This document shows positions 6,213 to 60,540 of a stretch of DNA of 64,000 nt, one piece after another. This DNA comes from Simmondsia chinensis. Its lineage: Eukaryota; Streptophyta; Magnoliopsida; Caryophyllales; Simmondsiaceae. Numbering within the stretch: position 1 is the stretch's first letter; every line of letters starts with the position of its first letter. The stretch covers positions 34,797,938 through 34,861,937 of the forward strand of contig JAGTTD010000001.1 in assembly GCA_018398585.1 (NCBI GenBank). Reading direction: 5' to 3'. The notes beneath the pieces are model-generated. The model saw nothing but the letters and a program-made list of their open reading frames with translations. It made no database searches and was not told the DNA's origin. Position numbers and translations under genes: made by a program.

Positions 6213-7350
6213 CAGTCACGGCTTCTTCCTGTTCCGCCAATTCGTTTTGGCCGTCTTCCTCAATGGCTTCACCTTCTTCTCCCCGTGGTTCATCAATGAA
6301 AAGGGCCTTACCAGGCCTGTCACCCTTTCTGCAATCAGCAATAAGGTGACCAACCTCCCCACACTTGAAGCAACACGTCCTTAATGAACCCGTCAAGTCT
6401 TGAGTAAACTGCCTTCCAGTGTTGATGGGTGGCATTCTGTTTGGTGCACTCTGAGTTGGGGATGCTCATGCTTGGTCTCTCCCGCCAACCCGTGTGCTCT
6501 AGGTTTCGCCAACTTGGTGGCACTTTTGTTATCGTTCCACGTCCACGGCTCTCTAACTTGCCTCGGATACGGTGAAGATATCGAACATGCTCAGCACTTC
6601 TTGTATAGACTCTCTCAAACTGTCAATGTAGCGATCCGCCAATTGCTCCCCTAACTCCGCCAAGTCATTCCTGAAGACTAAAGAGTAGCACTCCGCCGTG
6701 TACTCCTCCACGGATCTCAATCCCTGGCGCAACCCCTGCAGGCGTTGATACATCATTCTCACGTGGTTGTGAGGCAAGAAAACACCTCTCATGTGCTTCT
6801 TCATTTTCTTCCACGATTCTATCTTCATCTTTCCTTGGCGAAACTGGATCTGCTTCAATTGATGCCACCAGGCGGCTGCCCTACCTCGTAGCCTAGTAGC
6901 AACGAGCGGCGCCTGTTTCCTCCCCAAGACTTCTCTAAATTCAAGAACCTCCTGAACGGCAATGAGCCAATCTAGGAACTCCTCTGGACGTCCTCCTTTA
7001 TTAAATTTCGGGATCTCAATCCGAAGGCCGGATTTCCACCTCCGATCGTCACAGTCGTAGAAGTCACCGACATTGTGTTGATGGCACCTCAACCTAGGTT
7101 CCGGTAACTCTTCTTCCTGAAACGGTTTCGGAAAGCGATCGTCCACCTCCTCTACCGTTGCGCCCGGTGTTAATGGGGGTTGGTGCCGAGCTCCCGGTGT
7201 AAGATTAGGATTTGCCCCGAGTTGAATCAAGCAACGCTCGATTCGCCGAAATTTATCCTCCAATTCCTCTACCCACCCCTCGGTCTGCTGTTGACGATCA
7301 CGATCAACAACGTCTTCAATGGTGGCGTTCCTTTGACGTCCACACACCAT
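6163..7350 (-). pseudogene. Gypsy gag remnant with CCHC zinc knuckle
   Basis: The likely start is ATG at 7350 (MVCGRQRN); the frame is open to 6553. It carries a coiled, charged start (VEELEDKFRRIERCLIQLGANP) and the retrotransposon gag core (FDDWL/EVLEFREV, AAAWWHQLK, ..YQRLQGLRQGLRSVEEYT). The nucleocapsid knuckle CFKCGEVGHLIADC is in a different frame at 6435-6163, so at least one frameshift has occurred. The same start is conserved in the deleted relative at 58430. Confidence 0.85.
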
Positions 7351-12138: not shown

Positions 12139-12630
12139 CCGTTTAGTATAAATATAGGATTAGGGGGTACATTTTAGGTATACAATCAAAGAGAGCCACC
12201 ATCCAATCAGAATCCAATTAAAGTGAGGTCAGCCGTCGTCATCAATTTGAGAGCATTACGAGAGTTAAGAGAAAGTGATTCATAATTCTTTCATAGATCT
12301 CGTTCAGAGGAAGTGCCATTGTAATTCCTCCATTCAAGTATCAATAAAGAATCTCCATCTCCGCCCATGGTTTTCTCCCCTCTCGATTAAAGAGGGGTTT
12401 CCACGTAAATCATTGTGTGTTGTTTCGTTTGTTCTCTCGTTTACCTATTTTGTTTACTTCTCTTTTGTGTGAGTTATAGTATTTGAATCGAAACAAGAGA
12501 TTAGGGTTTACGCTTCCACATCAATTATCTATATTACAAATTGGTATCGTGAATACCAAATTTGTCAAGGTTAGATTTTCCTAACAATTGGTATCAGAGT
12601 ATATCAAGTTTATTCCAGATTTTTCAAACA
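11976..12630 (+). repeat. 3' LTR of the gag-only Copia
   Basis: 655 bp matching the 5' LTR. TATA box TATAAATA at 12147-12154. The upstream part contains three copies of the palindrome CCGATCGATCGG at 12033, 12053 and 12104. It ends caaaca at 12630, followed by target duplication aagat. Confidence 0.9.
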
Positions 12631-12895
12631 AAGATGGTTGATGGCTAATACCTGGTGGCGGGTGGTGCGAGAGGAGGATCTGGCAGCAGAGGCGCCGGCA
12701 ATCCGATAGCCAGGCGGGGGGGGGCAGCGTCCGTGGGGCGGGGTGGGGTGGGATTAGGGGAGGGGGAGTGATTTCGGAGAAGGGGGGACCTGTGTCGATT
12801 AAAGGTTATTTTTTATTAAATTTAAATTTAATCTTATTTTAAAAAAAAAAAAAGGGGGACAAAATTACAAAAAAAAAAAAGATGGATAAAATCCC

Positions 12896-13982: not shown

Positions 13983-14200
13983 ATCTGTATATATTTTACA
14001 ATATAGCAGTTTCTTATTTCCAAGGCATACATTGTTTCCTAAGCATTCAAACAAAAGAAAATTATGGGATCTCACTTGTAAGGGCATTGGGTCGCTAATA
14101 TGAAATGAGCATTATAATTAACAACAATAAAATGGTCCCTAATATTTTATTTTATGATAAAATTGCTCCCTCTTTTTTTTAAAATGGTCCAAGTGAGGGA
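13983..14200. repeat. Spacer with left arm of an interrupted inverted repeat
   Basis: Bases 14134-14164 are the inverse of 15022-15052 at 28 of 31 positions (core aatattttattttat). Without the TRIM between them, the arms would be only ~41 bp apart, forming a foldback. The rest of the spacer holds nothing I recognise. Confidence 0.6.
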
Positions 14201-14610
14201 CTAATTGATACGATTCCACATTGGTGGGAGATGAGAAAGCATACCAATTTATATACCAAGGGAGCTACCCCACTCATAGCGAATTGGTTTTGGGATGGAA
14301 CCTCTTTTGTTGTGTATCATTGATATAGAGCCATCGATCTTGTGCTCTACATTACCACTCTTATGGGGCTAGTGCCATTCACCGATCATATGGGGGCCCG
14401 ACGTCACTCGACCATCTTATAGGGGATTGGTGTGTGATGTGTTGCAAAATCGATTTCCATTAAAAAAATACTCAAGACCCTCGCCCAGGGTCTCAATGGT
14501 GATGTCAGTATTGTAGTAATGTTCACTCGTTACTAGATATCTAGTGTAAAGTCAGTGCATAAAGTGCAGATGGTGAAGCCGAAATTGCAGTGTTCGCTTA
14601 AGACTAGTAT

Positions 14611-14831
14611 CTAACCTAAGAGGGTACCAACACGCAAGCACCGGATTCCATTAGAACTCCGAAGTTAAGCGTGCTTGGGCGAGAGTAGTACCAAAATGGG
14701 TGACCTCCTCGGAAGTCTTCGTGTTGCACCCCTCGAGTTAGGGGTTCTCAGAAACAGCCACCCTGAAAGGCTAAGGCTGCATACATCCAACCCCCTCCCG
14801 GACCCTACTTAGGCGGGAACCCTTGGGGCAC
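14611..14831 (+). mobile_element. SINE with 5S rRNA head and RTE-LINE tail (most complete copy)
   Basis: The element is bounded by a 15-bp duplication, gcttaagactagtat, at 14596-14610 and 14832-14846, so it is a genuine retroposed insertion. The 5' half (14622-14733) is 5S rRNA sequence. The 3' half (~14744-14831: gaaacagcc, aaggctgcatacatcc, aggcgggaaccc, ggcactggg) matches the last ~110 bp of the RTE LINEs at 26319-26976 and 42461-46082. The ends fit a Pol III transcript copied by RTE machinery. I am not certain whether plant 5S-derived SINEs have been described. Confidence 0.88.
14622..14733 (+). pseudogene. 5S rRNA-derived head of the SINE
   Basis: 112 bp. It reads gggtacc, caccggattcc, agaactccgaagttaagcg, cttgggcgagagtagtac, gggtgacctcctcggaagtc, gtgttgcacccct, in the order of plant 5S rRNA, with a short deletion near the start. 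The internal Pol III control elements (A box around aagttaagcgtgc, intermediate element gggcgag, C box gggtgacctcc) are largely kept. It is not a functional 5S gene because it is embedded in a retroposon. Confidence 0.9.
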
Positions 14832-15052
14832 TGGGAATGTTGCTTAAGACTAGTATGTAGTTCAAAGCCAACTCACATGGATGCGAGATGTGGAGCATGG
14901 TGGATTAATATGATCCCACATCAGTAGGAGATGAGAAAGCATAGCAATTTATATAATAAGGGAGCTACTCAACTTATTACCAATTAGTTTTGGAATGAGA
15001 ACTCTTTAGGTGTGTATCACTAATTTTATTATAAAATAAAATATTAAGGACA

Positions 15053-16378
15053 TTTGAATAAAAGAAAAGATGAGACAGCAACTTAAACAAATTTCAAAAT
15101 ATTAGGGACCGTTTTTTAAAAACAATAATGGTCATTTACATTTTAGTATTACGGACGTTTTTGAAAATAATAAAAGGCATCTGACCTTTATTTATTCTTT
15201 TAGTACCTCACATTTTTTTATATTAATAAATAAGACTCTCTGTAGCATGACGACATCATAATCTAAGGAGAAATGACGTGGCAAGTCATCTATACTACAT
15301 TATATTTACGAAACTATCACTCTTGACCTTTATTTTATAAAAATAAAAAGAAAAACTACATTCTCAGCCATTAATGCACTTCACTTAGTAGGTATTTAAG
15401 TGATGTGTTACGTTAAAAGAGATATTTTTGCTAATATACTGTAGCAAGTGTTTAAAATGACCTGTCACATCAACTTTATCCCAGAAAAATAACATCAACA
15501 TGCAGAAGAGGATCATATTTATTTATACATAGAAAATCCAAGGTCTTAAAAAACCAAATAAAAAAAGTGAGGGCTTTTTTATTATTTCTAAAGTTAGTAA
15601 AATATAAATAACCTAAAAAATAACAGAATAATTGAAATAAAATTAAAAGCATCGGCACCAACCGCGTAAATAACTTAGCCTTTCTGACGAGCCTGAATAA
15701 TACAAGATTGAAAGAAGCCAAAAGAAAAAGTTCAGTAATTAAGTAATTATCTCTATACCATTCAACTATTTCCAACTCACTCCAAACAGGAACTACCATA
15801 TCCTTTACAGTGATCAGAGTCTCGTTTCCTTTTTTTTTTTCCCCTTCATGGGCAAAGAAATTCAAAAATAAACCCAACAAAGAGCAGATTAATCAGAATA
15901 ATTGCGCAATTAGAGGAAAATTAAGTAATACAGATAGAGAAATAAATGTAAGGCGTACCTTTTCTGAATTTGATCAAAATGAGGCTGCATAGCATTTCCT
16001 GATCAGTTTGAAGAGTGGAGTTGAGAGTGTAAACGAAGAAGGCATGATCGACGAAACAAAAAATGTAAAAACCTTAAAGGAGATATTTTGATATTACTTA
16101 ACAAAAAAGTAAACGAGCGAGATGAATACTTAGTGTAGTAGAGCGTGTGCATTGGGAAAGATTGATTACAAACGGAAAAAAAGTCGACAGCTCCAGAGAA
16201 GACTTATGGTAGACCAAGGGCAGACCAAGATTTGACTATTCTTGGGCATTTTTTCTTGATTATTTATATTTTAATATTTTTGAAAATAATAAAAAAAAGA
16301 TATTTATTTTTTTAAATTATTAAAAAAAATTTAAATTTTTGTCATAGTAATAAAAAAGTCCCTCTTCAGTATGATGAC
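15053..16378. other. AT-rich stretch with an unexplained minus-strand ORF
   Basis: No transposon ends are recognised here. The only sizeable open frame is minus-strand 15880-15476 (134 codons), rich in Phe and Leu with two or more hydrophobic stretches. Upstream of it on the same strand, ~16020-15960 could encode a short N-terminal peptide ending at a gtacgcc that resembles a splice donor. A captured gene fragment is possible but I recognise no family. Confidence 0.35.
15476..15880 (-). CDS. Hypothetical hydrophobic ORF, unknown
   Basis: 134 codons from ATG 15880. A lysine-rich start (EGEKKKGNE) arises from an A-tract, so the start may be intronic. The middle contains VPVWSELEIVEWYRDNY, which looks protein-like, followed by hydrophobic segments that could span a membrane. 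No neighbour or motif indicates a role. It may be chance or part of an exon. Confidence 0.2.
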   Translation of the reverse strand: MLGLFLNFFAHEGEKKKGNETLITVKDMVVPVWSELEIVEWYRDNYLITELFLLASFNLVLFRLVRKAKLFTRLVPMLLILFQLFCYFLGYLYFTNFRNNKKALTFFIWFFKTLDFLCINKYDPLLHVDVIFLG

Positions 16379-22290: not shown

Positions 22291-24298
22291 TGTTGGAATT
22301 AGTGTCATAGAAAAACCCAATTAGTTAGTTTTAAATACTAAATATATGAAATTATTTTATTTATTTATTGTTTAATCATGTTTTACAAGTCAAAATATAT
22401 GTGTGATTGTTTTTCTAAAGCGTTCCATGAGATGGACGTAGACTAAGGTGACACGTTAGGTTTGGTTTAATTGGTTAATGAGATCAAACCACAAATAGAC
22501 TTAGATCAATCTAGTTATATGTTGTGAAAGTATGTTCGTAGTCAGTATAAGTTTGGACAACTTATTTAATAAGATTATAATATGATATTTTAGATGATTT
22601 GCCATGGTCATGTGGATAGAGATCCAAAAGTACTATATTAGTGTTGTTTATATGATTGGAACACTGAGCATGATCACTTGAATTATTTCTTTCTTAACTG
22701 GTATTAGAAATAATTAATTCTGTAAAACGATAACACTAAATCCAAGAACTAGTCTGAACTTGTGCATTGAATATTCATTGATTTGATGTGCCAAAAGGAT
22801 TAGTTAAAGTGCGTTGACTTGAATCTTCTGTGCATTAGGTAATGGCATGAAGTGTAGTGAGAATAGTTATTTTATGTGGAATCTATAGTCTCTAATGAAA
22901 TAGAGATGTCCCCTTAGTTGATTCACAAAATATATGAACATATTATAGAATCTTTGCTCAAAGCATTCCATATGTTTGACATTTGGCATAATACGAAAAT
23001 TGTTTTTGTATTATTGAATTGTTCGAGAAGGGCGAGTCGAGAACTACGATGAGAGATGTAAGAAAAGTAACAACAGTAGTTAAAGTTACTTTTGGTCACG
23101 AATATCTAATAGAGGAGTTAATTGTCGTAATAAAAGTTATTTGAGAAATTTGTGAGTGAATATATTTAATTCTAGAGTGCAATAAAACATATTTAGTGGA
23201 ATTAAGTTTTACTTAATGGTAATCAATTGTTATCACGAGATGATAATCAGATTTGAACATTTTGGAGTTAGAGTTAGATTGTTCTTGAGGTCCTTTCGCA
23301 AGTCACAATTGAAAATATTTATAAAAAAATTCATGAGATGAATTATTTATTTATGAGATACATAAATTTTTATGCTAAACAAATATTCATGAGATGAATA
23401 TATAATACGATAAATATCGTATTTAAAATAATTCAAAAATTTCTTACCCAAAGTTAAGTCATGTGGGCCCCACATCTATTAAAGAAAAAAGGGGAGATAT
23501 ACGCGTGAGTTACACATTTTAAGCGAGGCTCTTGTTTTGCATATGAATACGATATTTTATAGTGAGAGATTATAAGTTTAGGGTTTTGAAACATAGTTTT
23601 CTTCCATGATAAAAACTCTGAAATTGTTTTAGAGATTTTCTAAATTATTGTTTAGCATAAATTTTTTGAAAAATTATTTTTTGGAGAGATTAAAGGAATA
23701 ATTTTGTTCTGAAACTTTTCTTGAGTTAAATATTTTTGGGAGCCCACACTCCCGATGCTAGAAGAGGTCATTGCAAAGAAACTCTTGTGGTGTCAAGAAA
23801 CCCTTCTCCAATTTCATATCTTCGAGATTCACTTCAAGTATGTTCAATTAAATATGTGTTATTTAGTTTGTTTTTCCTTTATTTCATTTATTTTACATAT
23901 TAGAACTCCGAAGTTAATCGTGCTTGGGCGAGAGTAGTACTAGGATGAGTGACCTCCTGTGAAGTTCTCACCCTCAGGTTAGGGGCACTAGGAAACAGCC
24001 TCTCTTCAGGTTAACACCCTGAAGGGGGAAGGCTACGTACATCCGCCCCCCGAGACCCTACGTAGGCGGGAGCCCTTGAGGCACTGGGTATGTTCTTCTT
24101 TTTTACCATGTTTGCATTTATTTTATTCGGTTTTTTTTTCTATTGTTATATTATGAATCTATTAGAGTAAGATTTTCATTTAATTAAATAGTTTAATTGG
24201 ATCGGGGCTTTCGATTTAAAATTAAGAATTTTAAATTGGTTTTCAACTGCACCCGGTCTAGTCAATTCAGGAAACTTTTTGGAAATACGTTCCCACCA
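22291..24298 (+). repeat. 3' LTR of Copia A
   Basis: Starts TGTTGGAATTAGTGTC and ends near ggaaatacgttcccacca. About 200 bp of it (23900-24098) is an inserted 5S-headed SINE not present in related LTRs. The 3' end is inferred from the parallel LTR of Copia B. Confidence 0.75.
23900..24098 (+). mobile_element. 5S-headed SINE, second copy, 5'-truncated
   Basis: Starts inside the 5S part (agaactccgaagttaatcgtg), continues through cttgggcgagagtagtacta and gagtgacctcctgtgaag, then the RTE tail (gaaacagcctctcttcagg, gaagggggaaggctacg, taggcgggagccc, gaggcactggg). The junction of head and tail differs from the 14611 copy: here the final ~20 bp of 5S are gone. A possible target repeat is catttatttta (23885, 24115), but it is T-rich and uncertain. 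Confidence 0.85.
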
Positions 24299-24393: not shown

Positions 24394-27018
24394 TGTTGGA
24401 ACCAATGTCTTGAAAACCCAATTATTTATATTTAAATATTAATAAATAAAATTATTTTATCTATTTTATGTCTAATTTATGGTTTAGGAGTCAAATATAC
24501 ATGTGAATATTTCTAAAACGCTCCATGAGATTGACGTAGTCCAATACGACATGTTATAGTTTTGTTTAAGTGGCTAATGAGATTGAGCTACTGATAGACT
24601 TAAATCAAAATTATGACGTGTTGTCATAGTAGGTGATAAGTTCTGAATAACTTGTCTGATAAGACTATAACATGATACCTTAGATGTCCTGTCTAGGTCA
24701 TCTAGATCGGGATCTTGAGGGATTATGTTAATGTTCGTCAATAAGATTGGAACATTGAGTTGGACCACCGGAATTCTTTATTTCTTAATTGCTATCAAAA
24801 ATAAATAGTTCTTTATGATTAGGCAATAACTCTAAATCCTGAGATTGTCTTGAACTTGTGCACATAGTATTCATCACTTTAATGTACTCAAAGTGAGGTC
24901 CTGTAAAGCGACCAGTAGTCTAGTACATTGAGTAATTACATGAAATATAGCGGGAAAAAAAAATGTCAATATGGAGTCTATAGTCTCTTATGAGATATAG
25001 ATATCCCCCATAAGTAGATTTGCAAGTGCTTGGAAAATTCAGAATCGTTGGCCTAAGTATTTCTAGTGTTCATCACTAGAATTAATATGAATAATATGTT
25101 ATCATGTCACAGAATTATTCAAAAAAGGGCGAGTCAGAAACTTAAGGGGAAGTTGTGAGAAGCATAATGATGTGAGTTTTAATTATTACTTCTCATGGAT
25201 ATCTAATACAGGGGTTGAACGCTCATTTATTACAGATTGGGAATTATCGAATAAATAAGTTCCATTCTAAAGTGCAGTAAGACTTATTTAGAGGAATTAA
25301 GTCTTGCTAAATGGTGGTTAAATTTTATCATGAGAGGATAATTAATTTGACCCATTTGAAGCTAGATTTAAATTGTCTCTGAAGTCCCTGCGCAAGCCTC
25401 TATTTTACACCATCAGAAAATTATTAAAGAAATTCATGAGATGAATTATTTATTCATGTGATAAGTAAATTTAAATTTGCTAAATAGTATTCATTAGATG
25501 AATAAAATTAAAATTTAAAAATAAAATAATTCTGTTAAAATAAAAATTCATAACATGGGGGAACAAAATAAAACAAAAAAGGAGAAAATCTATGAGTTTT
25601 ATAGGCTCGGCTAATCACGGCACGAAACGTGTCGTGCCATGAGAGGAGGAGAGGCGTGATCCATGCCTCTCGATTTGGACGAATCATGTGTCGCGCACTG
25701 GGACGTCCCACACAATCATTTGTGCCAACAGGCTCAGACGAATCACGAGCCGACGCATGGCATGAGTGACGTGTTCAAAACGCGGGAGGTCCCTTGCACT
25801 AAATGACGTCATTTTTGGTTTACAATTTTAATCCCACATCGAAATGTCGTACTCTTTTCGGTCCAATAGCCTATTATAAATAGTGGTCCTGGAATTAAGG
25901 TTTAGGATTAAAAATCAATTAATTTTATAATTTTTCGAGAGTGTTGACTTTCAGAGAATTCAAAGAGGAGAAATTTCTATTCAAAATTTTCCTCTAGTTT
26001 AATATTTTTCGGAGTTTACACTTCAAGTAATTTGAGGAGATTGCATGGAAGGTCTCCAAGTCACGGTTATTTCTTGAAGAGACACTATGGTCTACATTCA
26101 TATATTCTTCTTTCCATTTCCTTTAATTTTCGCTTGTTTATTTATTTACAGTATTTATTATGCTAGTTATTATTTATGTCATTATTATGAATGTATAAGA
26201 GTAAAAGGCTTGTCGATTTAAAATTAGAAATTTTAAATCCATAGATTTAGAATTAGGAATTTTCAATCTATTGTAGGTTTAGAATTACATATTTTAAATA
26301 GTTCCGCTGCCATTAATTGGGCGTGGCCTCAATTGAGGATAAATTGAGGGAACAACGTTTGAGGTGGTTCAGTCACGTTAGGAGGAGACCACCCACTGCC
26401 CCAGTCAGAAGATGCAAATAGCTACATGCTACGCTAGGGAGGAAAGGGAGAGGCAGGCCGAATAAGAGATGGCTGGAGACGATCTGACAGGACCTAACCA
26501 AACTAAACCTACAGGAGGAGATGACCATAGATAGAGCTTGTTGGAGGGTGAGCATAGGGGTAGCCGATGTAGCGGTTTAGAGTAGTGCATCTTATGATTG
26601 TTTTCTCTAGTGCCTTGAGGTGTATTAACTTCTTCTTTGGCACACGTCCTAGCGCACCTATTTGTCTATATGTGTTTGTAACCACTTGTTAAACTTGTAA
26701 CTCATGTAACTTGTGTACATGTTGATTATTTCATTGCAGCTATGCTTTGCAGTGTTGGCTTGTACTATTTACTGCTCCAACTATGTTCACCTCATGCTTT
26801 CAGGATTCTATGCTTCCATAATGACACACTCTTCAGGTCGAGGGTCCTCGGAAGCAGCCTCCCTTCAGGATAGCACCCCGAAGGGGCAAGGCTGCGTATA
26901 TCCACCCCCCAAGACCCCGTGTATGTGGGAGCTCTTGTGGCACTGGGTTTGTTGTTGTTGTTGTTGTCCGTTTTCGTTAATTAGACTAACTTATGGAATA
27001 TTTTTGAAATACATCCCA
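24394..27018 (+). repeat. 5' LTR of Copia B with RTE insertion
   Basis: ~1.97 kb of LTR plus the 658-bp RTE fragment. TATA box TATAAATA at 25875-25882. A near-palindrome ggcacgaaacgtgtcgtgcc lies upstream of it, near 25620, in the LTR part specific to this element. Confidence 0.8.
26319..26976 (+). mobile_element. 5'-truncated RTE LINE with complete 3' end
   Basis: Flanked by ttaatt (26313-26318, 26977-26982). It begins within the [38 protein letters not shown] matches the C-terminus of the RTE at 44430-44550 and ends at the tag at ~26578. A 3' UTR follows, then the shared tail (ggtcctcggaagcagcctcc, ggggcaaggctgcg, ggcactggg) and (TTG)n. This copy proves that the tail is the native end of the LINE. 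Confidence 0.88.
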
Positions 27019-31837: not shown

Positions 31838-33043
31838 TGTTGGAACCAGTGTCCTAAAAACCCAATTATTTGTGTTTAAAGATTAATAAATAAAATTATT
31901 TTATCTATTTTATGTATGATTATGGTTACGAGTCAAATATGCATGTGATTATTTCTAACATGTTCTATGAGATGGACATAGTCCAATACAACATGTCATA
32001 GTTTGGGTTAGGTGGTTAATGAGATTGAGCTACGGATAGCCTAAAATCAAAATTGTGATGTGTTGTCGAAGTAAGTTCATAGTCAATGATAAGTTATAGA
32101 CAACTTGTTTAATAACACTATAACATGATACCTTAGATGGCTTGTCTATGTCATGTGGGTAGGGGTCCAGAAATATCATGTTAGTGTTCGTCAATAAGAT
32201 TGGAACATTGAGCTGGTGCACAATAATTGTTTATTTCTTAACTACTATCAGAAATAAATAGTTTTGTGTGATTAAGTGATAACTCTAAATCATGAGATTG
32301 TCTTGAACTCATGCATATGGTGTTTTTCACTTTAATGTACCCAAAGTGAGGTCCTTTAAAGTGACCAATAGTCTACGTACGATGAGTACAACAACAACAA
32401 TCCCAGTGCCTCAAGGGCTCCCACAAAAGCGAGGTCGGGGGGGGGGGGGGGGGGGGTTGATGTACGCAGCCTTCCCCCTTCAGGGTGTCAACCTGAAAAG
32501 AGGCTGTTTCCGAGGACCCCCAACCTGAGAGATATGTAGTTTACATATGATGAGTGACTGCATGAAATGTTGTGGGAACAAAATAGTCAACATGGAGTCT
32601 ACAGTGTCTTATAAGATAGAGATGTTCCCATAAGTAGATTCGCAAGTGTTTGAAAAAATTCGGAATCTTTGGCCAAAGTATACCTAGTGTTCCTCATTGA
32701 ATTCATATGAGGAATATGTTATCGTGTCACAACTATTCGAAAAAGGGCGAATCAGGAAGTTAAGGAGAAGCGGTGAGAAGTACAATGATGGTAGTTTTAA
32801 TTAGTACTTCTCATGGACATCTAATAGAGGGATTGATCATTCATTTATTACAAATTGTGAATTATTGAATAAATAAGTTTAATTCTGGAGTGCAGTAGAA
32901 CTTATTTAGTAGAATTAAGTCCTGCTAAATGGTAGGTAATTTTTTTCATGAGATGATTAATTTGACCCATTTGAAGCTAGATTTAAATTGTCCCTGAGGT
33001 CCCTAAGCAAGCCTCTATTTACACCATCAGAAAAATATTAAAT
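31838..33043 (+). repeat. 3' LTR of Copia B, truncated
   Basis: Collinear with the 5' LTR from 24394 to about 25430, then stops at 'aaaatattaa' and array sequence starts. It contains a minus-strand RTE-tail insertion at 32388-32541. Confidence 0.8.
32388..32541 (-). mobile_element. Short RTE-tail element (LINE or SINE 3' fragment)
   Basis: On the minus strand it ends with (TTG)n and carries the shared tail (gtcctcggaaacagcctc, gaagggggaaggctgcg, gagcccttgaggcactggg). The flanks tacgtacgatgagt and tacatatgatgagt are an imperfect target duplication. No 5S head remains, so LINE and SINE origin cannot be distinguished. A run of 20 G on the plus strand (32437-32456) replaces the usual short C run. 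Confidence 0.8.
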
Positions 33044-33608
33044 GACTCTCGAAACTACTAATTTTAATACTATTTAAAAAATTGAAATTTGGGATTGGAG
33101 TTTGAAATTAAAGCACTAAAGTGACAAAAATAGTGATTAAAAAGGGGATAGTTCAGTTTCAGGACCTGGGCATCCAATTTTACCTAATTGCTCTGATATG
33201 ACTTCTTATTCTCGTTATTCTAGTTGATTATCCATGTTGATGGTCGAAATCCCAATTTTTCTATATATTCTCTATCGAGCAATATTTGGCCTACTCTTTT
33301 ACTTATATCCCATTAATCTCTTGCATGAATTTAAATAAGAAAAGAGTCATGAAAAATAATGGTTTTCACATCTAAGACCACACAAATCGTGTTAACCTGT
33401 CTCTTGCGTTAGGTCAATTTATGATATATAGTATTTTAGCAATAATTATAAATCTGCTCTCGGACTCATTCTAAAGCATTAGAAATTTTGAATTGTTATA
33501 AAGAACTCAAAAAGCATGAAGAACAATAATAAACACTTCAATAATAGAGTTACAAAACATCAAATACCTTAAACAAGGAAGAACATATTTTATAAAATAG
33601 CAATATCC

Positions 33609-34000
33609 TGTTAGCTTCCAAAATTTAATTTGGAAGTCTAACCTTGTAGAAGAGAGTTTGAGATGAGAAAATTAGAGAAAAGGGATGAGAATTAGAGAAT
33701 TTTCCTTAGCAATCAGATTTCATTTAATTGGATGATCCAAATGCATCTTTAAGCTCCAAATATATACACAATGGAAAGCAAAGCAAATTGATCTAACAAC
33801 CAGCAAGAACTCCCGCCAAAAATCCTCACTTGTAACCAATTTTCCCGCCAAGTGCAGATCAGGTGCTGCACATGAATACTGTGGGAAAATCTGCATTTTT
33901 GGGGCACTCTTAAGTTGTTCTTACATCATATAAGACTCTAATTAAAAGTAATACTAAAAGATTAAAATGCATTACAAGTAAAATTTATTAATTCGTAACA
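33609..34000 (+). mobile_element. Solo LTR inside array monomer 1
   Basis: 392 bp from TGTTAGCTTCC to TTCGTAACA, which splits the conserved ctatatcgtagcc of the monomer. Flanks tatcc (33604-33608) and tatcg (34001-34005) form a 5-bp duplication with one mismatch. No interior or partner LTR is present. Orientation is uncertain. Confidence 0.7.
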
Positions 34001-35319
34001 TATCGTAGCCTTAGTAAAAAAAAAAAAAAAACAATCACCTCATCACTAACTTAATAACAATCAAGACTGAAATCAAGGACATAAATTAGAGAGAGAAGGA
34101 GTAAAGAAGGCTAGGACAAGAAGAAACCACAAACCGAGCTTCTACTTCTTGTGCCGTGGCTCCTTTGCGGAGATTCCTTATTGAATGATTATCGGAGCTA
34201 CTAATTTCAATACTATTTGAAAAATCAAAATTTGGGTTTTGAGTATGAAATTAAAAAACTAAAGTAACGAAAATAGTGATTTAAAAGGGGATAGTTCAGA
34301 TTGAGGACCAATGCATCCGATTTCAATTAATTGATCCAATATGACTTCTTATTCTAGGTTTTCAAGTTGATTATCCATGTTGATTGTCAAAAACCCAATT
34401 TTTTTATGTATTCTCTCTCGAGCAATATTTGGCCTACTTTTTTACTTATAAATCCATTAATCTCTTGCATGAATTTAAATTAGAAAAGTGTCATGAAGAA
34501 CAATGGTTTTCACATCTAAGACCACACAAATGGTTTTAACCTATCTCCAGCGTTCGATCAACTTATGATATATATTATTTTAACAATCATCCTAAATCTC
34601 CTCTCAGAATCATTGTGAATCTTTAAAGAATTTGAATGTTGATCAAGCAGTCAAAAAGCATGAAAAATAATACTAAACACTTTAACAATAGAGTAACAAA
34701 ACATAGAATCCCTCGAATAAGGAAAAACTTATTTTACAATTTAGGCTATATCGTAGCCTCAATGAAACAAATTAGTTCATGGCTATCTTAATAACAAGCA
34801 AAACTAAAATCAAAGACATAAATTAAAGAGAAAACGAGTAAAGAATGCTTCATCACGAACAATCGAGCTAATGCTTCGTGTGCCCTAGTTCCATTGCCGA
34901 GATTGTTAATTGAATGAGTACCGAAACAAGTAATTTTAATACTATTTGAAAAGCCAAAATTCATGTTTTGAGTATGAAATTAAAAGACTAAAGTAACAAA
35001 AATTGTGATTTAAAGGGGATAGTCCAGATTGAGGACCAAGGCATCCAATTTCACCTAATTAATCTGATATGACTTCTTATCCTCAGTATTTAAGTTGATT
35101 GTCCATGTTGGTGGTCGAAAACCTTATTTTACCATATATTATTTCTCAAGCACTATTTAGCCTTATCTTTTACTTATTAACCCATCAATCTCTCGCATGA
35201 AATTAAATAAGAAAAGAGTCATGAAAAATATGGTTTTCACATCTAGGACTACACAAATCACGTTACCAATATCTTTAGCGTTCGCTCAATTTATGGTATT
35301 TTTATTATTGCAATCATAA

Positions 35320-35450
35320 TCAGGTTGGGGGTCCTTGGAAACAGCCTCTCTTCAGCTCGCCCTGGAGGGGGAAGGCTACGTACATCAACTCCCCCAGACC
35401 CCGCTTATGCGGGAGCCCTTGAGGCACTGGATTTATTGTTGTTGTTGTTG
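35320..35450 (+). mobile_element. Short RTE-tail element in array monomer 3
   Basis: Bounded by an exact 12-bp duplication ttgcaatcataa (35308-35319, 35451-35462). It begins tcaggttgggggtccttgg, exactly where the LINE-shared tail starts, and ends (TTG)n. It is therefore tail-only: either a very short RTE copy or a SINE that lost its head. Confidence 0.88.
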
Positions 35451-38400
35451 TTGCAATCATAAGTCTCCTTTTGGACTCATTATGAATCATCAGAAATTTT
35501 AAAACTTGATCTAGCACTTAAAAATCATAAAGAACAATAATAAACACTTCAACATTAGAGTAAAAAAAATAGAATACCTTAAATGAGGAAGAACATATTG
35601 AATAATTTAGGCTATATAGTAGCCTTGTAGAAATTAGTTCATGGCTAACTTAATTACAAGCAAAACTAAAACAACAGCAAAAATTAGAGAGAAATAGAAG
35701 TAAAGTAAGCTTCGACGTGAAAGAAGAAACCCCATTGTGGGCCATGTATCCATTTTCGGGATTGTTTATTGAATGAGTAGCGAAACTACTAGTTTTAATA
35801 CTATTTGAAAAAACAAAATTTGGGTTTTGAGTATGAAATTAAAAGACTAAAGTAACAAAATAGTCATTTAAAAGGGGATAGTTCAAATTGAGGACCAAGG
35901 ATTTGGAGTCCACCTAATTGATCCGATATGACTTGTTATCGGTGTTCAAGTTGATTATCTATTCGGATGGTTGAAAATCCTACATTACTCTACATTCTCT
36001 CATGAGCAGTATTTAGCCTACTCTTTTACTTATGAACCTATCAATCTTTTGCATGAATTTAAATAAGAAAAGGGTCATGAAGACCTATGGTGTTCATGTC
36101 TAAGAACTAACAAATCGCTTTAACCTATCTCTAGTATTCGTTTAATTTAAGGTATTTATTATTTTAGCAATCATTATACATCTTCGCTCGAACTCATTAT
36201 GAATCATTATAAATTTTGAATGGTGATCATGCACTCAAAAATATGAAGAACAATAATATACACTTCAACAATAGAGTGACAAAACATAGAATACCTTAAC
36301 TAAGGAAGAACACATTTCACAATTTAGACTATATCGTAGCCTTAGGACAAAACAATTTAGTTCATGGCTAACTTAATAACAAGCAAAACTCAAATCAAAG
36401 TCATAAATTATAGAGAAAAAGGAGTAAAGAAATCTAGGACATAAAAGAAGAAACCCCAAACCAAGCTTCTTCTTCGTGTGCCCAGGCTCCATTGTCGGGA
36501 TTGTTTATATAAACAGTACCGAAACTACTAATTACAATACTATTTGAAAAATGGAAATTTGGGTATTGAGTATGGAATTAAAAGACTAAAGTAATGAAAA
36601 TAGTGATCTAAAAGGGGATGGTTCAGATTGAAGACCAAGGCATCCGATTTTACCTGATTGATCCGACATGACTTCTTATTCTTGGTATTCAAGATGATTA
36701 TTCATGTCGATGGTCGAAAATCCTATTTATTGTATATTCTCTCTCGAGCAATATTTTGTCTATTTTTTTCACTTATTTATGCATCAATTTCTCTGATGGA
36801 TTTAAGTAAGACAAGAGTCATGAAGAACTAAGGTTTTCTCATCTAAGACAACACAAATCGCATTAACCTATTTCTAGCCTCAGCTCAATTTATGGTATAT
36901 ATTGTTTTAGCAATCATCATAAATCTCCTCTCGGACTCATTTTGAATCATTAGAAATTTTTAATGGTAATCAAGCATTTAAAAAGCATGAAGAACAATAA
37001 TAAACACTTCATCAATAGAGTAACAAAACATAAACTGCCTTAAATAAGGAAGAATTATCATACAATTTAGGTTGTATTGTAACCTTAGTAAAAAAATAAG
37101 TAGTTCATGGCTAACTTAATAACAAGCAAAACTAAAATCAAAGACATAAATTATAGAGAAAAAGGAATAAAGAAAGCTTGGACATAAAAGAAAAAACTCC
37201 AAACCAAGCCTCTAATTCATGTGCCCTGGCTCCATTGCCGGGATTGTTTATATAATGAATATTGAAACCGGTAATTTTAATACTATTTGAAAAATTGAAA
37301 TTTGGGTTTTGAGTATGAAACTAAAAGACTAAAGTAATAAAAACAATAATTTAAAAGGGGATAGTTCAAATTGAAGTACAAGGCATAAGATTTGACCTAA
37401 TTGATCCGATATGACTTCTTATTCTTAGTATTCACGTTGTTTATCCATCTCATTGGTTGGAAATTTTATTTTAATATATATTCTTTCTCGAGCAATTTTT
37501 AGACTACTCTTTTACTTATTAACCCATCAATCTCTTGCACAAATTTAAATAGGAAAAGAGTAATGAAGAACTATGGTTTTCACATCTAGACCACACAAAT
37601 AGCTTTAATCTATCTCTAGCATTGGCTCAATTTATGGCATATATTGCTTTTGCAATCATCGTAAATCTTCTCTCGGACTCATTGTGAATCATTAGATATT
37701 TTGAATAGTAATCAAGCACTTAAAAAGCATGAAGAACAATAATAAACACTTCATCAATAGAGTAACAAAACATAAAATACCTTCAAGAAGGAAGAACTTA
37801 TTTTACAGTTTAGACTATATTGTGGCCTTAGTAAAAACTAATTAGTTCATGGCTAACTTAATAACAAGCAAAACTAAAATTGAAGACATAAATTATAGAA
37901 AACAAGGAATAAAGAAAGCTAGGACAAACCCCAAACCAAGGTTCTGCTTCGTGTGCCCTGGCTCCATTGCCGGAATTGTTTGTATAATGAGTAACAACAC
38001 TAGTAATTTCAATACTATTTGAAAAATCAAAATTTGGGTTTTGAGTATGAAAATAAAGGACTAAAGTAAAAAAAATAGTGATTTAAACTGGGATAGTTCA
38101 GATTGAAGAACAAGGCATAAGATTTGACCTAATTTATCCAATATGACTTCTTATTCTCAGTATTTAGGTTGACTATTCATGTCAATGGTTGAAAATTTTA
38201 TTTTACTATATATTCTTTCCCGAGCAATATTTAGCTTACTCGTTTACATATTAACTTGTCAATCTCTTTCTCAAATTTAAATAAGAAAAGCGTAATGAAG
38301 AACTATGGTTTTCACATCTAGACCACACAAATTGCGTTAACCTATCTCTAGCATTGGCTCAATTTATGGTATATATTTTTTAGCAATCATCATGAATCTC

Positions 38401-39496
38401 CTCTTGGACTCATTGCGAATGATTAGTAATTTGAATGGTTATCAAGCACTTAAAAAGTACGAAGAACAATAATAAATACTTCAACAATGGAGTAACAAAA
38501 TATAGAACACCTTAAATAAGGAAGAACATATTTTACAATCTAGGTTATATCGTAGCCTTAGTAAAAAAAAAAAAAAAAGGCACAAGGCTAACTTAATAAC
38601 TAGCAAAACTAAAATCAAAGACATAAATTATAAATAAAAACGAGTAAAGGAAGCTAGGACATTAAAGAAGAAATTTCAAACCAAGCTTCTTCTTCATGTG
38701 CCTTGGCTCCATTGCTGGGATTGTTTATATAATGAGTACTGAAACTACTAATTTCAATATTATTTGAAAAATGGAAATTTAGGTTTTGAGTATGAAACTA
38801 AAAGACTAAAGTAGTGAAAGCAGATATTTAAAAGGGGATAGTTCGGATTGAAGACCAAGGCATAAGATTTCACTTAATTGATGCAATATGACTGATTATT
38901 CTCAGGTATTCAAGTTGATTATCCATGTCGATGGTCGAAAATTCTATTTTTCTATATATTTTCTCTTGAGAAATATTTAGCCTACTCTTTTCCTTATTAA
39001 CCGATCAATCTATTGCATGAATTTACATAAGAAAACAGTCATGAAGAACAATAGTTTTCACATCTAAGATCACACAAATCGCGTTAACCTATCTCTAGTA
39101 TTAGCTCATTTGTGGTGTATATTATTTTAGTAATCATGAGAAATCTCCTCTCGAATTCATTGTGAATCATTTGAAATTTTGAATGGTGATCAAGCAATCA
39201 AACAGCTTGAAGAACACTAATATACACTTCAACAATAGAGTAATAAGACATGGAATGCCTTAAATAAGGAAGAACATATTTTACAATTTATGCTATATCG
39301 TAGCCTTAGATAGAAAAATTAGTTCATGGCTACATAATAACAAGCAAAACTAAATTGAAAGGCATAAATTAGAGAGAAAAAGGAGTAAAGAAAGCTAGGA
39401 CATGAAAGAAGAAACCCCAAAATCGATATCCTGCTGTGTGTGCCCTTATTTCATTACCAGGATTGTTCATTGAATGAGTACCTAAACTACTAATTT

Positions 39497-39861
39497 TTTT
39501 GATGTATTTTCAAAATAAAGTACTTAATAAAGTATGTTAGGTTTTTGTAAATTGTATTTGATTTGATTATAGTGTGTGTCGACACACAATCTTGCAGAGG
39601 CACACTCAGAAAGATGAGTGTCGACACACAGATTCTATGTGTTGACACCAAATCTTATAGAACCCAGGAACTGGGTTTGAGTGTCAACACATAGAACTTG
39701 TGCATCGACACACGAACCCTGTGTGTGTCGACATTCAATTCGACATGCAGGGGGTTATGGTTGGTACCTTGCGTGGTTTTTTGTGGATTTTTAAGAAATT
39801 AATTTGATAATTTTAAAGGGACATGTCCCTTGTTTGAATATAAGTATGGACGATGTGTCTC
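39497..39861 (+). repeat. 5' LTR of Copia C, left part
   Basis: Collinear with 52421-52773. Contains several copies of the palindrome GTGTCGACAC and close variants (~39578, ~39622). The LTR is cut by the L1 at gtgtctc and resumes at 47776. Confidence 0.88.
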
Positions 39862-42460: not shown

Positions 42461-44700
42461 TTAGGGTTGATGCACTAAGGAAGTGGTTTCAAAAAGATTG
42501 CAAGAATTGTAAGGTCATCCCTGGGAAGGACCTCTCAACACAACACAGGATAGTGTGTGTGGAGGTCAAGGTCAAGAGAAGGGGCAAGAAAGTCATCAGA
42601 CCAGCACAACCACGCACGCGCTGGAGGGATCTGAATGGGGAAAAGTCCCATGTTTTTATGGAAAGGGTTGAGGCGGAGTTTGGAAGGGATTGTGAGGGAG
42701 ATCTAAACCACGTGTGGAACCAGGTAGCCTAAAAGATAAGAGACGTGGCCCGCGAAGTTCTAGGCATATCAAAGGGTGGGACACCACACAACAGAGAGAC
42801 CTGGTGATGGTGCAGGGAGGTAAAAGAAAAAATTAAGGCAAAACGTCATAGCTTTAAGGAGTGGGATCGAAGTGGAGATGATGATAAGAGACAACAATAT
42901 AAACAGGCTAAGAAGGAAGCAAAGATGGCAGTAAGAGACACACAATCTAAAGCCTATGAAGAGTTCTCTAAAAGACTGGACACAGTTGAGGGGGCCGAGG
43001 ACCTATATAGAATTGCAAAGGCAAGAGAAAGGAGGACTAGGGACCTGGACCAAGTAAGGTGCATAAAGGGAGCCGATGGACAAGTGCTCATAGATGAGCA
43101 ACATATTAAAGCAAGGTGGAAATCCTACTTCCATGACCTGTTCAATGAAAAGGAAGAGACTATTGCATCCTCAGGAGAACTACAAGCAACGGCGGAACAC
43201 GAGAACTACTCCTACTACACCAGAATTAGACCCAAGGAAGTTAGGGAAGCATTGAGGAAAATGGGCAGGAGTAAAGAAGTTGGCCCAGATGGAATACCCA
43301 TTTAGGCATGGAGATGTGTTGGAGAAGTGGGCATCAGATGGCTGATCAAACTATTCAACCAAATTCTCGAAGGGAAAAAGATGCCTTACGAATTGCGGGA
43401 GAGTACACTAGTTCCCGTCTATAAGAACAAAGGCGACATTCAGAGTTGCACAAACTATAAAGGAATCAGACTAATGACCCATACTCTGAAGCTATGGGAA
43501 AGGGTTGTAGAAAGAAGGCTGCGACAACAAGCAGGGGTCTCGAAAAACCAATTTGGATTTATGCCAGGCAGATCAACAATAGAAGCCATCCATCTCCTGA
43601 GGAGGTCCATAGAGTACTATAGAGATAGACAAAAGGACCTTCACATGGTTTTCATCGATCTGGAGAAGGCATATGATAGAGTACCAATAGAAGTTATATG
43701 GAGGGTCTTAGAGAAGAAAGGAATCCAAGAGCCTTATATTCGAGTCATTAAGGACATGTATGCGGACGCCCAAACCAAGGTGCGCACAACGGAAGGGGAG
43801 ACAGACGCTTTTTCCATTACAGTGGGGGTACACCAAGGATCAGCCTTGAGCCCCTTTCTGTTTATTTTGGTTATGGACAAGCTCACTAGGCACATCCAAG
43901 GGGATGTGCTTTGGTGTATGCTTTTTGCAGACAACATAGTTCAGGTGGGAGAATTGAGGGAGGAGGTGAATGAGAGACTAGACCTCTGGAGGATGGCCTT
44001 AGAATCGAAAGGTTTAAGACTGAGTAGATCTAAAACAGAGTACATGGAACTCAAGTTTTACGCCTCTACCATGCCAAGCACAGAAGCCGTCCAGATTGGA
44101 TCAGAGCAAATACCACATAAAACATTCTTTAAATACTTAGGTTCCATGGTGCATCAAGATGGCGAAGTGGACGCAGATGTTAACAACAGGATTAAAGTGG
44201 GTTGGCATAAATGGAAAATGGCCTTTGCGGTACTGTGCAATAGAAAGTTCCCGTTAAATCTAAAGGGTAAATATTACAAGACGGTAGTGAGGCCGGCTAT
44301 GTCATACGGGGCAGAATGCTGGCCAGTTGAGTGCCACCACACGCAAAAGCTGATGGTGGCAGAGATGAGGATGCTGAGGTGGATGAGTGGGCATACAAGG
44401 AAGGATGGGATTAGAAATGACGTTATAAGAGAGCAATTGGGCGTTGCCCCAATAGAGGACAAGTTGAGGGAGCAACGACTGATGTGGTTTGGGCATGTTA
44501 AAAGGAGACCCACCACTGCCCCTGTCAGGAGATGCGAACAACTCCAGATAAGAGACGGAAAGAGAAGGAGAGGACGGCCAAAGAAGAGTTGGATGGAGAC
44601 GATTCTAAAGGACCTCGCTCATCTCAACCTAAATGAAGAGATGGCCCTGGATAGACCCCAGTGGAGGATTAGGATAGGGGCACCTGATATTGGAGGGTAG
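42461..44700 (+). pseudogene. RTE ORF with three in-frame stops
   Basis: One frame, no frameshift. The stops are at 42730-42732 (taa), 42805-42807 (tga in a run of Trp codons) and 43303-43305 (tag after VGPDGIPI). The N-terminal piece is the endonuclease end (CKVIPGKDLSTQHRIV). RT blocks: [20 protein letters not shown], an [19 protein letters not shown] segment, [31 protein letters not shown], and [10 protein letters not shown], where the usual FADD has its second Asp changed to Asn. The C-terminus ends RIGAPDIGG. Little decay otherwise, so this copy is comparatively young. Confidence 0.92.
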
Positions 44701-45590: not shown

Positions 45591-45949
45591 TCGCTACCAT
45601 TACTTACTTTCTCCTGTCCCTATCTCACTCCCTCTCTCGCTTGCTCTCTCTCTCTCGCCCCTCTCCCCTCCCAGATGCACTACTACTTCTATATGTTTGC
45701 ATTGTCGCACATGTTAGGTCTTCCCATTACTTGCTTGTTTGCTTTTTACCTCTAGCTATAGCTACTAATGCACCATGTGTACTCGCTTACATGCTTACAT
45801 GATTGTCTGCTCATATGCTACATGTTCACATACTTACATGACTTACATGCCTTGCATGATCTCTATGCCATTCATCCGTGCTATACAGGCCCTTGCATGC
45901 TCATACTCTTTAGAGAGGCTCTATACAACCTAGTAACTTATCAACTATC

Positions 45950-46082
45950 AGGTTGGGGGTCCTTGAAAATAGTCTCTCATCAAGGTCTCACTCTAATGGG
46001 GCAAGGCTACGTACATCCTACCCCTCCCAGACCCTGCTAAAACGAGAGCCTTTGAGGCACTGGACTTCTTGTTATTGTTGTT
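45950..46082 (+). repeat. 3' tail of the RTE LINE, shared with the SINEs
   Basis: ggttgggggtccttgaaaat, ggggcaaggctacgtacatc, cccagaccctgc, gcctttgaggcactgg, then a TTG-rich end. Collinear with the ends at 26842-26965, 35320-35450 and the SINEs. Confidence 0.88.
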
Positions 46083-47775
46083 GGGTAGTGTCACAATTGT
46101 TCATGAGGCTTTAGATCTCTTTGCTATTCTTTTAGGGCTTTCCTCGAACATAGCAAAGAGTACAGTTTTTCTAATAGGAGTTGATTCTGCAGATCAGAGG
46201 GATATTGTTGGCACTTTGGGATTCAGTCTTAGACAATGCCCAGTACGACATTTGGGTGTGCCACTCATTACTTCTCAGCTGTAGTATGTAGACTGCAAGC
46301 TGCTTCTGGTTCGCATCCTCTCCCATATTCGGTTATGGACCTCTCATTCTCTATCTCACGCTGGCTGCCTGTAGCTCATCCAGTTAGTCCTATTTGTTAT
46401 TCAGGTCTACTGGTCATCGGTCTTCATATTCTCGAAGACGATGATCAGAAAGATCGAGTCAATTTTAGCAACTTTTCTCCAGTGTGGCTCTTCGCTGACC
46501 CTGGGGGGGAGGGAAGGTAGCTTGGAGGCATCTGTGTTATCTTAGACGGGAGGGTGGTCTAGGACTTCATCATCTCATTGAGTGGAACCAACCTTCGATT
46601 ATAAAGCAAATCTAGTTTCTTTTTTTTGACCCTTATTTGCTCTGGCCACTTTGGGTTTATCTGAACTACCTTCGAGGAAGGAGCTTATGGACAATTCGGG
46701 GGAGGAGTTTTGTATCATAGTGCTAGCGTCAGATTCTATCAGTCCGTTGCCTCTGGTCTAGTGCGATCTATCACCTCATTGGCGTTGGCCTTGATACTAC
46801 CCTATGGACTGATTATTGGCTTCCGTATAGCTGTTTTTCGGAGTGCTTCCCTGCTCGACTGCTCACCTCTTCTGGGCTTCTGTGGGATTCTCGGGTCTCA
46901 GCCATTATTGAGGGTGATCGGTGGAGATTTTCCTCAGGGTTTCTTGGAGGTTTGACCCATATAGGATATAATTGACTTTAGCCCTCAGACTGGTGTGGCG
47001 GACTCCATCAGGTGGCTGGGCAACCCTTCGGCGAAATTCACCATTAAAGCTGCTTGGGAGATTTGTAGAGTAGGTGGGAGGTGGACCTTATTCATCACCT
47101 TCTATGGTTTTAGATGCACATTCCGAGGAACTCATTTCTTCTATGGCCCTCTTCTCGGATGCGGCTTTGGACTTGAGACTGGCTTCTGCGATTTAGAGCG
47201 TAGGGAGTTAAGAGTGTTTGTGTTCTCTGTCGCCTTGTTGATGCGTCTCATGAGCATATTTTCTTCGCTTGTGCCTTTTCTGCATCAGTCCGGGCTTCCA
47301 TCATTCCGAGTACATGTATGGCTTGGCCTGCCCTTCCTTGGGATGATCTCGTTACTTGGGCTGCTCAGCACCTCAAGGGGTGAGAGGTTGGCAGTATTAT
47401 AGCTCGACTCTACCTCTTGGTGACCGTGTATACTCTCTAGTACGAGCGCAACCTTCGGGTGCAGCTTTCTCAATCTAGATTAGTTGCTGCTGTGAGAGAG
47501 GAGATTACGGGGTCTGGTCAGGAGCCGCTTACTTGCAGCTCCTTCATTCAAAGGAGCTCACCACCATGTGTCCTTGCTTCGAAAATAGGGACTTGGGTCT
47601 TAGTTCTTCTTTGTTTCCCTTAGTTTCTGCTTTGCTTGCTTCTTGTATGGACTATGTATGAACTATGTTTTGACGTTGTTTCATCATTGTAGGCTTCGGT
47701 CGTGTCCTATGGTACGCCCCTTGTAGCTATATTTCTTTAAGCTATATATTTCACTGACTTACCACGTAAAAAATT
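46083..47775 (+). pseudogene. L1 ORF2 second part (RT end, C-terminal domain) and 3' end
   Basis: SVTIVHEALDLFAILLGLSS at 46089 resumes the RT after the F-V-D-D block. CPVRHLGVPLITSQL (~46240) is the L1 block YLG.PL. IRWLGNPSAKFTIKAAWEIC (~47010) is the zf-RVT-type block near the C-terminus. A decayed 3' UTR follows. Confidence 0.78.
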
Positions 47776-52420: not shown

Positions 52421-53054
52421 TGTTGATGTATTTTCAAAATAAAGTACTTAATAAAGTGTTTCAGTTTTGTATATAATGTATTTGATTTGATTATAGTGTG
52501 CGTCGATACATATTATGTGTGTGTCGACGCACAATCTTGCAAAAAACATACTTGAGAAGATGAGGGTCGACACAGATTTCGTGTTCAACACCAAATCTTA
52601 CAAAACCTAGGAACTGGGTCTGTGTGTCGACACACAGCCGTCACTCAGTTTGACACACAGGCAATTATGGCCTTTACCTTACGTGGTTTTTTGTGGATTT
52701 TTTAGAAATTAATTTGATAATTTTAAAGGGATGTGTCCCTTATTTGAAGATAAGTATGGATGATGTGTCTCTTCCCAAGAGACACATCAAACTCTATAAA
52801 TAGCCACCATTGTTATTTTGCAAAGTACTTGAAAAAATACATTCTCTCCTTTGTTTAAACCCTCATTCATCTTTCCTCTCTACACTCCTCCCCTCAGTTT
52901 GTATTGGGGTTTCATTGTATCTCTTAGACTATTTCGGTATTAATGAAGTAACTCTTAAGGAAAATGGTTCGTTACATGCCTACCAGTGATTGAAATTGAT
53001 ACATGTTTCATATTCCCCTAACTGTTTTGTGTGATTTACCTTTGTGTTCTAACA
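52421..53054 (+). repeat. 3' LTR of Copia C
   Basis: 634 bp. Contains several tgtgtcgac/gtcgacaca words at 52498-52640 and TATA box TATAAATA at 52796-52803. An imperfect inverted gtgtctctt..aagagacac lies just upstream of the TATA box (52766-52784). Confidence 0.9.
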
Positions 53055-53535
53055 AATTTCAATACTATTTGAAAAATCAAAATTTGGGTTTTGAGTATGA
53101 AACTAAAAGACTAAAGTAATGAAAACAGTGAATTAAAAGGGGATAGTATAAAGGCATAAAATTTCACCTAATTGATCCAATATGACTTCTTATTCTTGGT
53201 ATTCAAGATGACTATTCATGTCAATGTTTGAGAACCCTATTATACTTTGAGAAATATTTAGCCTACTCTTCTACTTATTAACCCATCAATCTTTAGCATG
53301 AATTTAAATAAGACAATAGTCATGAAGACCTATGGTTTTCACATCTAAGTTCACATAAATCTCTTTAACCTATCTCTAGTGTTCGCTTAATTTATGGTGT
53401 TTTTTAATTTAGCAATCACCATGAATCTTATCTTGGACTCATTATGAATCATTAAAAATTTTGAATGGTGATCAAGCACTTAAAAAGCAAGAAGAACAAT
53501 AATAAACACTTCAAAAATAGAGTAACAAAAACATA

Positions 53536-53697
53536 AAAAAGGAACATATCCAGTGCCTCAAGGGCGCCCGCCTACGCAGGGTCTGGGGGGGCTGATGTAC
53601 GCAGCTTTCCCCCTTCAGGGTGTTAACCTGAAAAGAGACTGTTTCCCAGTGCTCCCAACCTGAGGGTGAGGACTTCCTAAGAGGTCACCCAACCTGA
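53536..53697 (-). mobile_element. 5S-headed SINE, third copy, minus strand
   Basis: Bounded by an exact 16-bp duplication gagtaacaaaaacata (53520-53535, 53698-53713). On the minus strand it starts in the 5S C-box region (gggtgacctcttaggaagtc), then the tail (gaaacagtctcttttcaggt, gaagggggaaagctgcg, taggcgggcgccc, gaggcactgg). The TTG end is replaced by a short A/T-rich stretch. The head-tail junction is the same type as in the 23900 copy. Confidence 0.9.
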
Positions 53698-60420: not shown

Positions 60421-60540
60421 GGGCTTGAGGCTCATAGCCTAGTGGTTGGATTTCCGGTTGCCAAGTAGGAGTGCCGGGGTTCGAATCCCCACTAGTGTAC
60501 CCCCCTCCCTTGGCTTTACACGGTTAAAAAAAAAATAAAA
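60421..60540 (+). mobile_element. tRNA-derived SINE
   Basis: A box tagcctagtggttgg and B box gggttcgaatcc lie ~30 bases apart, giving a Pol III tRNA-type promoter. A pyrimidine-rich body and an A-rich tail follow. The flanks aaagaagaaacc (60409-60420, 60544-60555) are a 12-bp target duplication of array sequence. About 120 bp. It has no LINE-like tail such as the 5S-headed SINEs carry. Confidence 0.88.

Follow-up and report, generated by a model that had tools for sequence, protein, structure and literature searches.

The window, that is the whole 64-kb stretch of DNA that was analysed, contains on its forward strand a 231-bp element, A (14611-14841), whose borders were fixed by a target-site duplication and which is the fullest of three 5S-headed copies. 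The left copy of the duplication, GCTTAAGACTAGTAT at 14596-14610 (+), is identical in 15 of 15 positions to the 15-bp right copy, GCTTAAGACTAGTAT at 14842-14856 (+), and this is the sole exact repeat of at least 8 bp between 14561-14660 and 14781-14900. An exact 15-bp duplication around the element had already been reported in the first-pass annotation and is indeed there. The same annotation had placed the element at 14611-14831; the start stands, whereas the end has to be moved 10 bp further, to 14841, according to the duplication. After a 5' stretch to which no origin was assigned (14611-14619, +), lying between the duplication and the Rfam 5S match, A consists of a 5S rRNA-derived head (14620-14732, +; RF00001), which includes the region of the A, intermediate (IE) and C boxes, and an RTE-type 3' tail (14733-14841, +), which terminates in ATGTT and was delimited by alignment and by a profile match with an E value of 1.8e-27. 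When compared with RF00001 by cmscan, the head scored 71.6 bits (E 3.7e-13) over model positions 1-120, with a few model positions absent near the 5' end of the match, which bears out the earlier statement that A holds almost all of 5S rRNA. The A, IE and C boxes, previously described as recognisable, could be read in the sequence of the box region. Two Rfam matches with E <= 1 were obtained in all by cmscan in the 64 kb, and the 5S match of A is one of them. A HYMAI match at 12580-12853, with 33.3 bits against a gathering score of 80, was taken as chance. In the tail alignment, A lacks 15 bases found in most other tails. Six other places in the window match A, all of them through the tail.

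A is surrounded by a 51-nt inverted repeat (14129-14179 and 15065-15115, 75% complementary), and a direct repeat with 83 of 103 positions identical links 14204-14306 to 14904-15006, in the right flank of A. The sequence into which A inserted may itself be an older mobile element.

Two of the six other tail places, B and C, also have 5S-like sequence directly 5' of the tail, which the first-pass annotation had not noted. Element B (23900-24104, +), recognised by the similarity of its head and by the tail profile, is 5'-truncated and comprises a 5S head and a tail, with T-rich sequence after it. Its head (23900-23973, +) matches that of A at 60 of 67 positions (E 1.5e-17), and B scored 24.5 bits against the Rfam 5S model, under the gathering score of 38, with an E value of 0.0044 for the 261-base stretch searched. 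Element C (53536-53696, -), also 5'-truncated, has a tail matching the profile with an E value of 3.9e-41 and a remnant of the head, namely its last 33 bases (53664-53696, -), with 21 of 24 positions matching the head of A (window E 0.017). The Rfam search of C gave no 5S match; the head score of C was reached by none of 5000 random 31-mers from the window, draws starting in or beside the three copies being skipped. In A, B and C, head and tail adjoin directly and the register of the join is the same, and an exact pattern for the head-tail join matches A and B. The 5' truncation points of B and C differ. Both are without the same 8 bases that A has at the junction, just 5' of the tail, and a GCACT motif in the tail is common to the two. 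Across the junction, B and C are identical at 141 of 159 aligned positions (18 mismatched, plus 2 gaps; C taken as 53537-53696), and the comparison of A with B gave 156 identical, 23 mismatched and 28 gap positions. The first-pass annotation had envisaged that all copies might prove to be one locus, or that head and tail might be apart in every other copy. Inside the window, A, B and C lie in three separate places with their own flanks, and B and C keep the join.

A and B both contain the internal control region of 5S. The C-box core reads AAAATGGGTG in A, AGGATGAGTG in B and AGGTTGGGTG in C; compared with AGGATGGGTG, given as the canonical plant C-box in the cited part of PMC10853983, A has two changes and B and C have one each, at different positions. 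Since the changes fall at different positions, the majority sequence of the three copies is the canonical one. There is no internal run of four or more T in A; C has T4, and B has T6 directly after it.

The four remaining copies, D to G, consist of the tail alone. A profile built from the seven tails of A to G themselves, and searched against the window, returned those seven tails with E values from 1.8e-27 to 3.6e-42, the next match having an E value of 0.035. D lies at 32389-32528 (-), E at 35320-35450 (+), inside satellite sequence, F at 26833-26967 (+), and G at 45948-46084 (+), about 1.25 kb downstream of a LINE frame. The tail-only copies terminate in (TTG)n or a close variant; A, B and C terminate in ATGTT, and T-rich sequence then follows in B and C. 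In the tail tree (200 bootstrap replicates requested), A, B and C were separated from D-G with 64%, and B was grouped with C with 81%. Columns that set a trio of tails apart from all the others numbered two for A, B and C, two for D, E and F, and one for each of five other trios. Support for the grouping of A, B and C in the tail tree is modest. Hairpins could be fitted to the seven tails, but the covariation term was unfavourable, with 102 of 500 shuffles reaching the covariation score, and A folded no better than its shuffles (z -0.44). As neither covariation nor folding exceeded the shuffles, structure was not used as support.

According to the tail profile, D, E, F and G have a common start, TCAGG (at 32528, 35320, 26833 and 45948, respectively), and its first base is the base of the 5S-tail junction. 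The exact 12-bp duplication of E (35308-35319 and 35451-35462) abuts this start base; that of D, imperfect with 16 of 19 positions, begins 8 bases further out. The 400 bp upstream of each tail-only copy showed no mutual similarity at E <= 0.01. With a head-plus-tail profile of A, B and C, the match of G begins about 15 model positions before those of E and F, and G might conceivably retain a degraded remnant of the head. A common TCAGG start of tail-only copies is not expected from random LINE truncation, and it suggests that the enzyme stops or switches at a fixed point, TCAGG.

Further evidence on how these copies arrived comes from their flanks. C is bordered by an exact 17-bp target duplication, with the downstream copy at 53519-53535 (-) and the upstream copy at 53697-53713 (-), and other satellite monomers show the site unoccupied. 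C sits in an array of satellite monomers of about 740 bp, and, when its flanks were joined, 15 other places in the window aligned across the join. In the six of these 15 counterparts that were aligned, the target runs on without interruption, differing by one base in length and by some substitutions. E is located in the same kind of satellite array, with 16 other places aligning across its joined flanks, and D has a related insert-free site at 24782-25058, which shows a gap at the join since both repeats were kept. No empty site for A or B was found in the 64-kb window. For B there is no convincing duplication: the candidate repeats have a high AT content and do not abut the element ends, and the 3' border is not fixed by a duplication. 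No target repeat was found for F and G. In a test with 1000 random left flanks, drawn from the window with satellite monomers and the sites themselves included in the draws, the number scoring at least as high as the real flank was 1 for A, 2 for B, 5 for C, 0 for D, 3 for E, 899 for F and 929 for G. Plant SINEs mobilised by RTE elements typically have target duplications of no more than 20 bp, as stated in the cited section of PMC13295347; those of A and C measure 15 and 17 bp, respectively, and the candidates of B are not flush. As insertion signature of plant RTE SINEs, the same section gives a duplication that starts with TA and is preceded, at a distance of about 10 nt, by a T stretch. 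By eye, the duplication of C starts with TA and has TTT about 10 nt upstream, and that of A starts with GC and has no T run.

The arrays of ~740-bp monomers, at 33000-39500, 53000-55500 and 59700-64000, act as a trap that records insertions, with unoccupied monomers alongside. Another monomer carries a 435-bp insertion at 33593-34027. At 60421-60543, a tRNA-like SINE was recognised by eye from sequences resembling boxes A and B, an A-rich tail and flanking repeats AAAGAAGAAACC; it is inserted in a satellite monomer and forms an ordinary contrast to the 5S-headed copies. ARAGORN, run with the bacterial code, reported no tRNA gene, also at 60421-60543, and blastn found no second copy of this SINE in the window.

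A LINE-type reverse-transcriptase frame is located at 43306-44697 (+; RVT_1 E 2.6e-32). We read it as RTE type; an element of this kind would provide the enzyme. The first-pass annotation had attributed the tail to RTE LINEs in the same window, which is borne out in part: one LINE-type reverse-transcriptase frame was examined, and no tail lies directly behind it, the nearest downstream tail being that of G. Among the best 120 of 4313 relatives of the frame, 28 name an organism, and these are 26 angiosperms, one catfish and one Methylobacterium. The angiosperms among the matches listed include Malus, Dendrobium, Lycium, Capsicum, Lonicera, Orobanche, Glycine, Zea and others, and the top relative among the matches listed is the catfish one, with 50% identity over 88%. 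A plant host is therefore supported, because 26 of the 28 organism-named LINE relatives listed are flowering plants.

A LINE outside the window was found in NZ_CP104070.1, in one (L001) of the 16 candidate stretches of a search for LINE relatives in prokaryote genome contigs. Its protein is 58% identical to the window frame over 461 residues, and its 3' end, GACCCCACATAG...GGCTGGATATGTTGTTGTTG, matches the last part of the tail profile. This match, at 6380-6425 of the stretch L001, stands at the end of the LINE coding match, with (TTG)n following; it covers only about 50 nt and is weak by itself (E 0.036 in L001 and 0.12 in L002, a wider stretch of the same record). In L002, the tail profile gave that end only, plus two matches with E values of 0.6-0.7, and the head of A had no match there with E <= 1. 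No LINE in the analysis showed the first half of the tail. LINE relatives were found neither in viral contigs nor in phages, and in plasmids they were restricted to two records, NZ_CP104070.1 and a 33%-identical Azospirillum match under a gene annotated cas1. NZ_CP104070.1 is named as a 39.8-kb Alicyclobacillus plasmid, yet it carries a plant-like LINE besides catA1 and an IncFIA replicon, and it is probably a mislabelled BAC or fosmid clone whose insert is from a plant. Patterns for the 5S-tail junction or the tail gave no match in three scans of viral contigs and none in prokaryote genome contigs, and element A gave none in plasmids, all of these being non-plant collections in which records near the window may be missing and from which nothing follows for plants.

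The LINE of the window and that of L001 are provisionally taken by us to belong to the RTE clade. The RTE label is indirect: it rests on the (TTG)n ends and on the weak similarity of the tail to the 3' terminus of a single LINE outside the window. RTE LINEs of plants have (TTG)n or (TTGATG)n at their ends, as described in the cited part of PMC3747384, and the review PMC9033089, in the passage cited, names the (TTG)n end as a mark of plant RTE elements versus (A)n for L1. For legumes, the cited part of PMC13295347 reports Tn as the end of RTE-type SINEs and (GTT)n as that of their LINEs.

Taken together, A, B and C are most probably copies of a plant SINE that joins a 5S-derived, putative Pol III head to the 3' tail of an RTE-clade LINE. 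The first-pass annotation had argued that head and tail inserted as a unit and not by chance adjacency, and it was right in this, since the duplications enclose both parts in A and in C. As judged from the sequences, the evidence favours the amplification of a small family from a single chimeric source; at least three of its copies lie in the 64-kb window, to which this count applies. This view is based on the junction change shared by B and C, on the identity between B and C, and on the duplication of C together with its counterpart sites. In such a family, the internal 5S control region with its boxes A, IE and C would recruit the Pol III machinery, and the transcript would end in the RTE tail, by which the LINE reverse transcriptase would recognise it. 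The enzyme would copy the RNA at a chromosomal nick; staggered cleavage would give rise to the duplications of 15-17 bp, and incomplete copying to the 5'-truncated B and C. As to the origin of the chimera, an enzyme copying RTE RNA may have stopped at the 5' border of the tail module and jumped onto the 3' end of 5S rRNA, the product then being amplified. A pause at this border, after which the product is integrated or the enzyme moves to another RNA, could account both for the starts of the tail-only copies and for the junction.

The explanation that comes closest to competing, although we consider it unlikely, is that each copy is a template-switch chimera of its own, formed as the LINE enzyme jumped repeatedly to 5S rRNA. 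Such repeated jumps would be helped by the position of the junction, at the very tail base where the tail-only copies begin, as a fixed pause could yield the same junction again, and A keeps the 5S end, of which B and C are without 8 bases. The 8-base difference common to B and C, their GCACT motif and their 141 of 159 identical positions over head and tail could hardly result from separate jumps. The heads of A and B are also alike at 60 of 67 positions, although 5S itself could account for that. A could nevertheless be a second, separate event.

An origin of the copies as solo LTRs or fragments of a Cassandra-like TRIM, in which 5S sequence lies in the LTR, is very improbable. 5S sequence does occur in a known retrotransposon of plants, Cassandra, as described in the cited parts of PMC10853983 and PMC10886601; in PMC10853983 it is placed near the middle of the LTR, whereas here it stands at the 5' end of the element, and PMC10886601 gives duplications of 5 bp for Ajax and plant Helenus, which are comparable TRIMs, in contrast to the 15 and 17 bp found here. 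The 3' part of A, B and C is moreover a LINE-type tail, unlike a Cassandra-like TRIM, and the 5S-headed copies thus show neither 5S sequence inside LTRs nor short duplications. We give equally little credit to a 5S pseudogene brought beside a LINE tail by chance or nested insertion, or to one chimeric locus copied by DNA duplication: tails are common in the window (7 in 64 kb), but in three copies the head immediately precedes the tail, always in one register, with the exact pattern in A and B, the duplications around head and tail together contradict chance adjacency for both A and C, and the copies differ in their flanks and truncation point.

Several known elements are close in design; Ped-1, HaSE3 and TS were likened to A, B and C by description and not by sequence, and no descent from the animal families is claimed. 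Ped-1 of the springhare, listed in Table 1 of PMC3747384, also combines a 5S head with the tail of an RTE-clade LINE; it differs in its rodent host and in its BovB tail. HaSE3 of the moth Helicoverpa armigera likewise has a 5S head and an RTE-type tail, and its body and tail are common to HaSE1, whose tail resembles HaRTE1.1 (PMC3272025 and PMC7245038, in the parts cited). As in our window, a head is joined there to a tail that is also used with another head; the host is an insect, and a body region is present. In the tobacco TS SINE, a 3' end of about 100 bases is nearly identical to that of a potato RTE LINE, both ending in TTG repeats, as reported in the cited part of PMC3747384; the head of TS, again compared by description rather than by sequence, is tRNA-derived. 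Zebrafish SINE3 shares the 5S head but has a CR1-type tail and is listed among the DeuSINEs in Table 1 of PMC3747384. The Cassandra TRIM, a plant retrotransposon with a 5S-derived promoter region as here, differs by being an LTR element with 5S inside the LTR (PMC10853983 and PMC10886601, in the parts cited).

In other lineages, 5S-related SINEs are reported from the fungus Aspergillus fumigatus in the cited text of PMC5063351. Plant SINEs are described as tRNA-derived in the cited passage of PMC9033089. A passage of PMC3095306 mentions 5S-homologous sequences "among the SINE3 retrotransposons", plants included, with the Cassandra paper as source. No 5S-headed SINE of plants was found in the accessible text of open papers, and the nearest plant relatives in that accessible open literature are the Cassandra elements. 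Animals have already yielded the design of a 5S head with an RTE tail; in plants it is apparently new.

It has been speculated in print that the 5S sequence of Cassandra came from the insertion of a SINE3 into an LTR (PMC10886601, in the part cited). Our copies might represent the plants' own SINE3, which would have originated independently when an RTE enzyme paused and switched to 5S rRNA, with the same pause giving rise to the tail-only copies, and which would be the kind of donor proposed for the 5S of the Cassandra LTR; we put this forward tentatively, as a possibility that is rather less probable than not. The coincidence of the junction base with the start of the tail-only copies offers a concrete handle on how SINE heads are acquired. 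If the plant family is real, non-LTR elements captured the 5S promoter in plants too, and a SINE3 origin of the 5S sequence of Cassandra would become testable.
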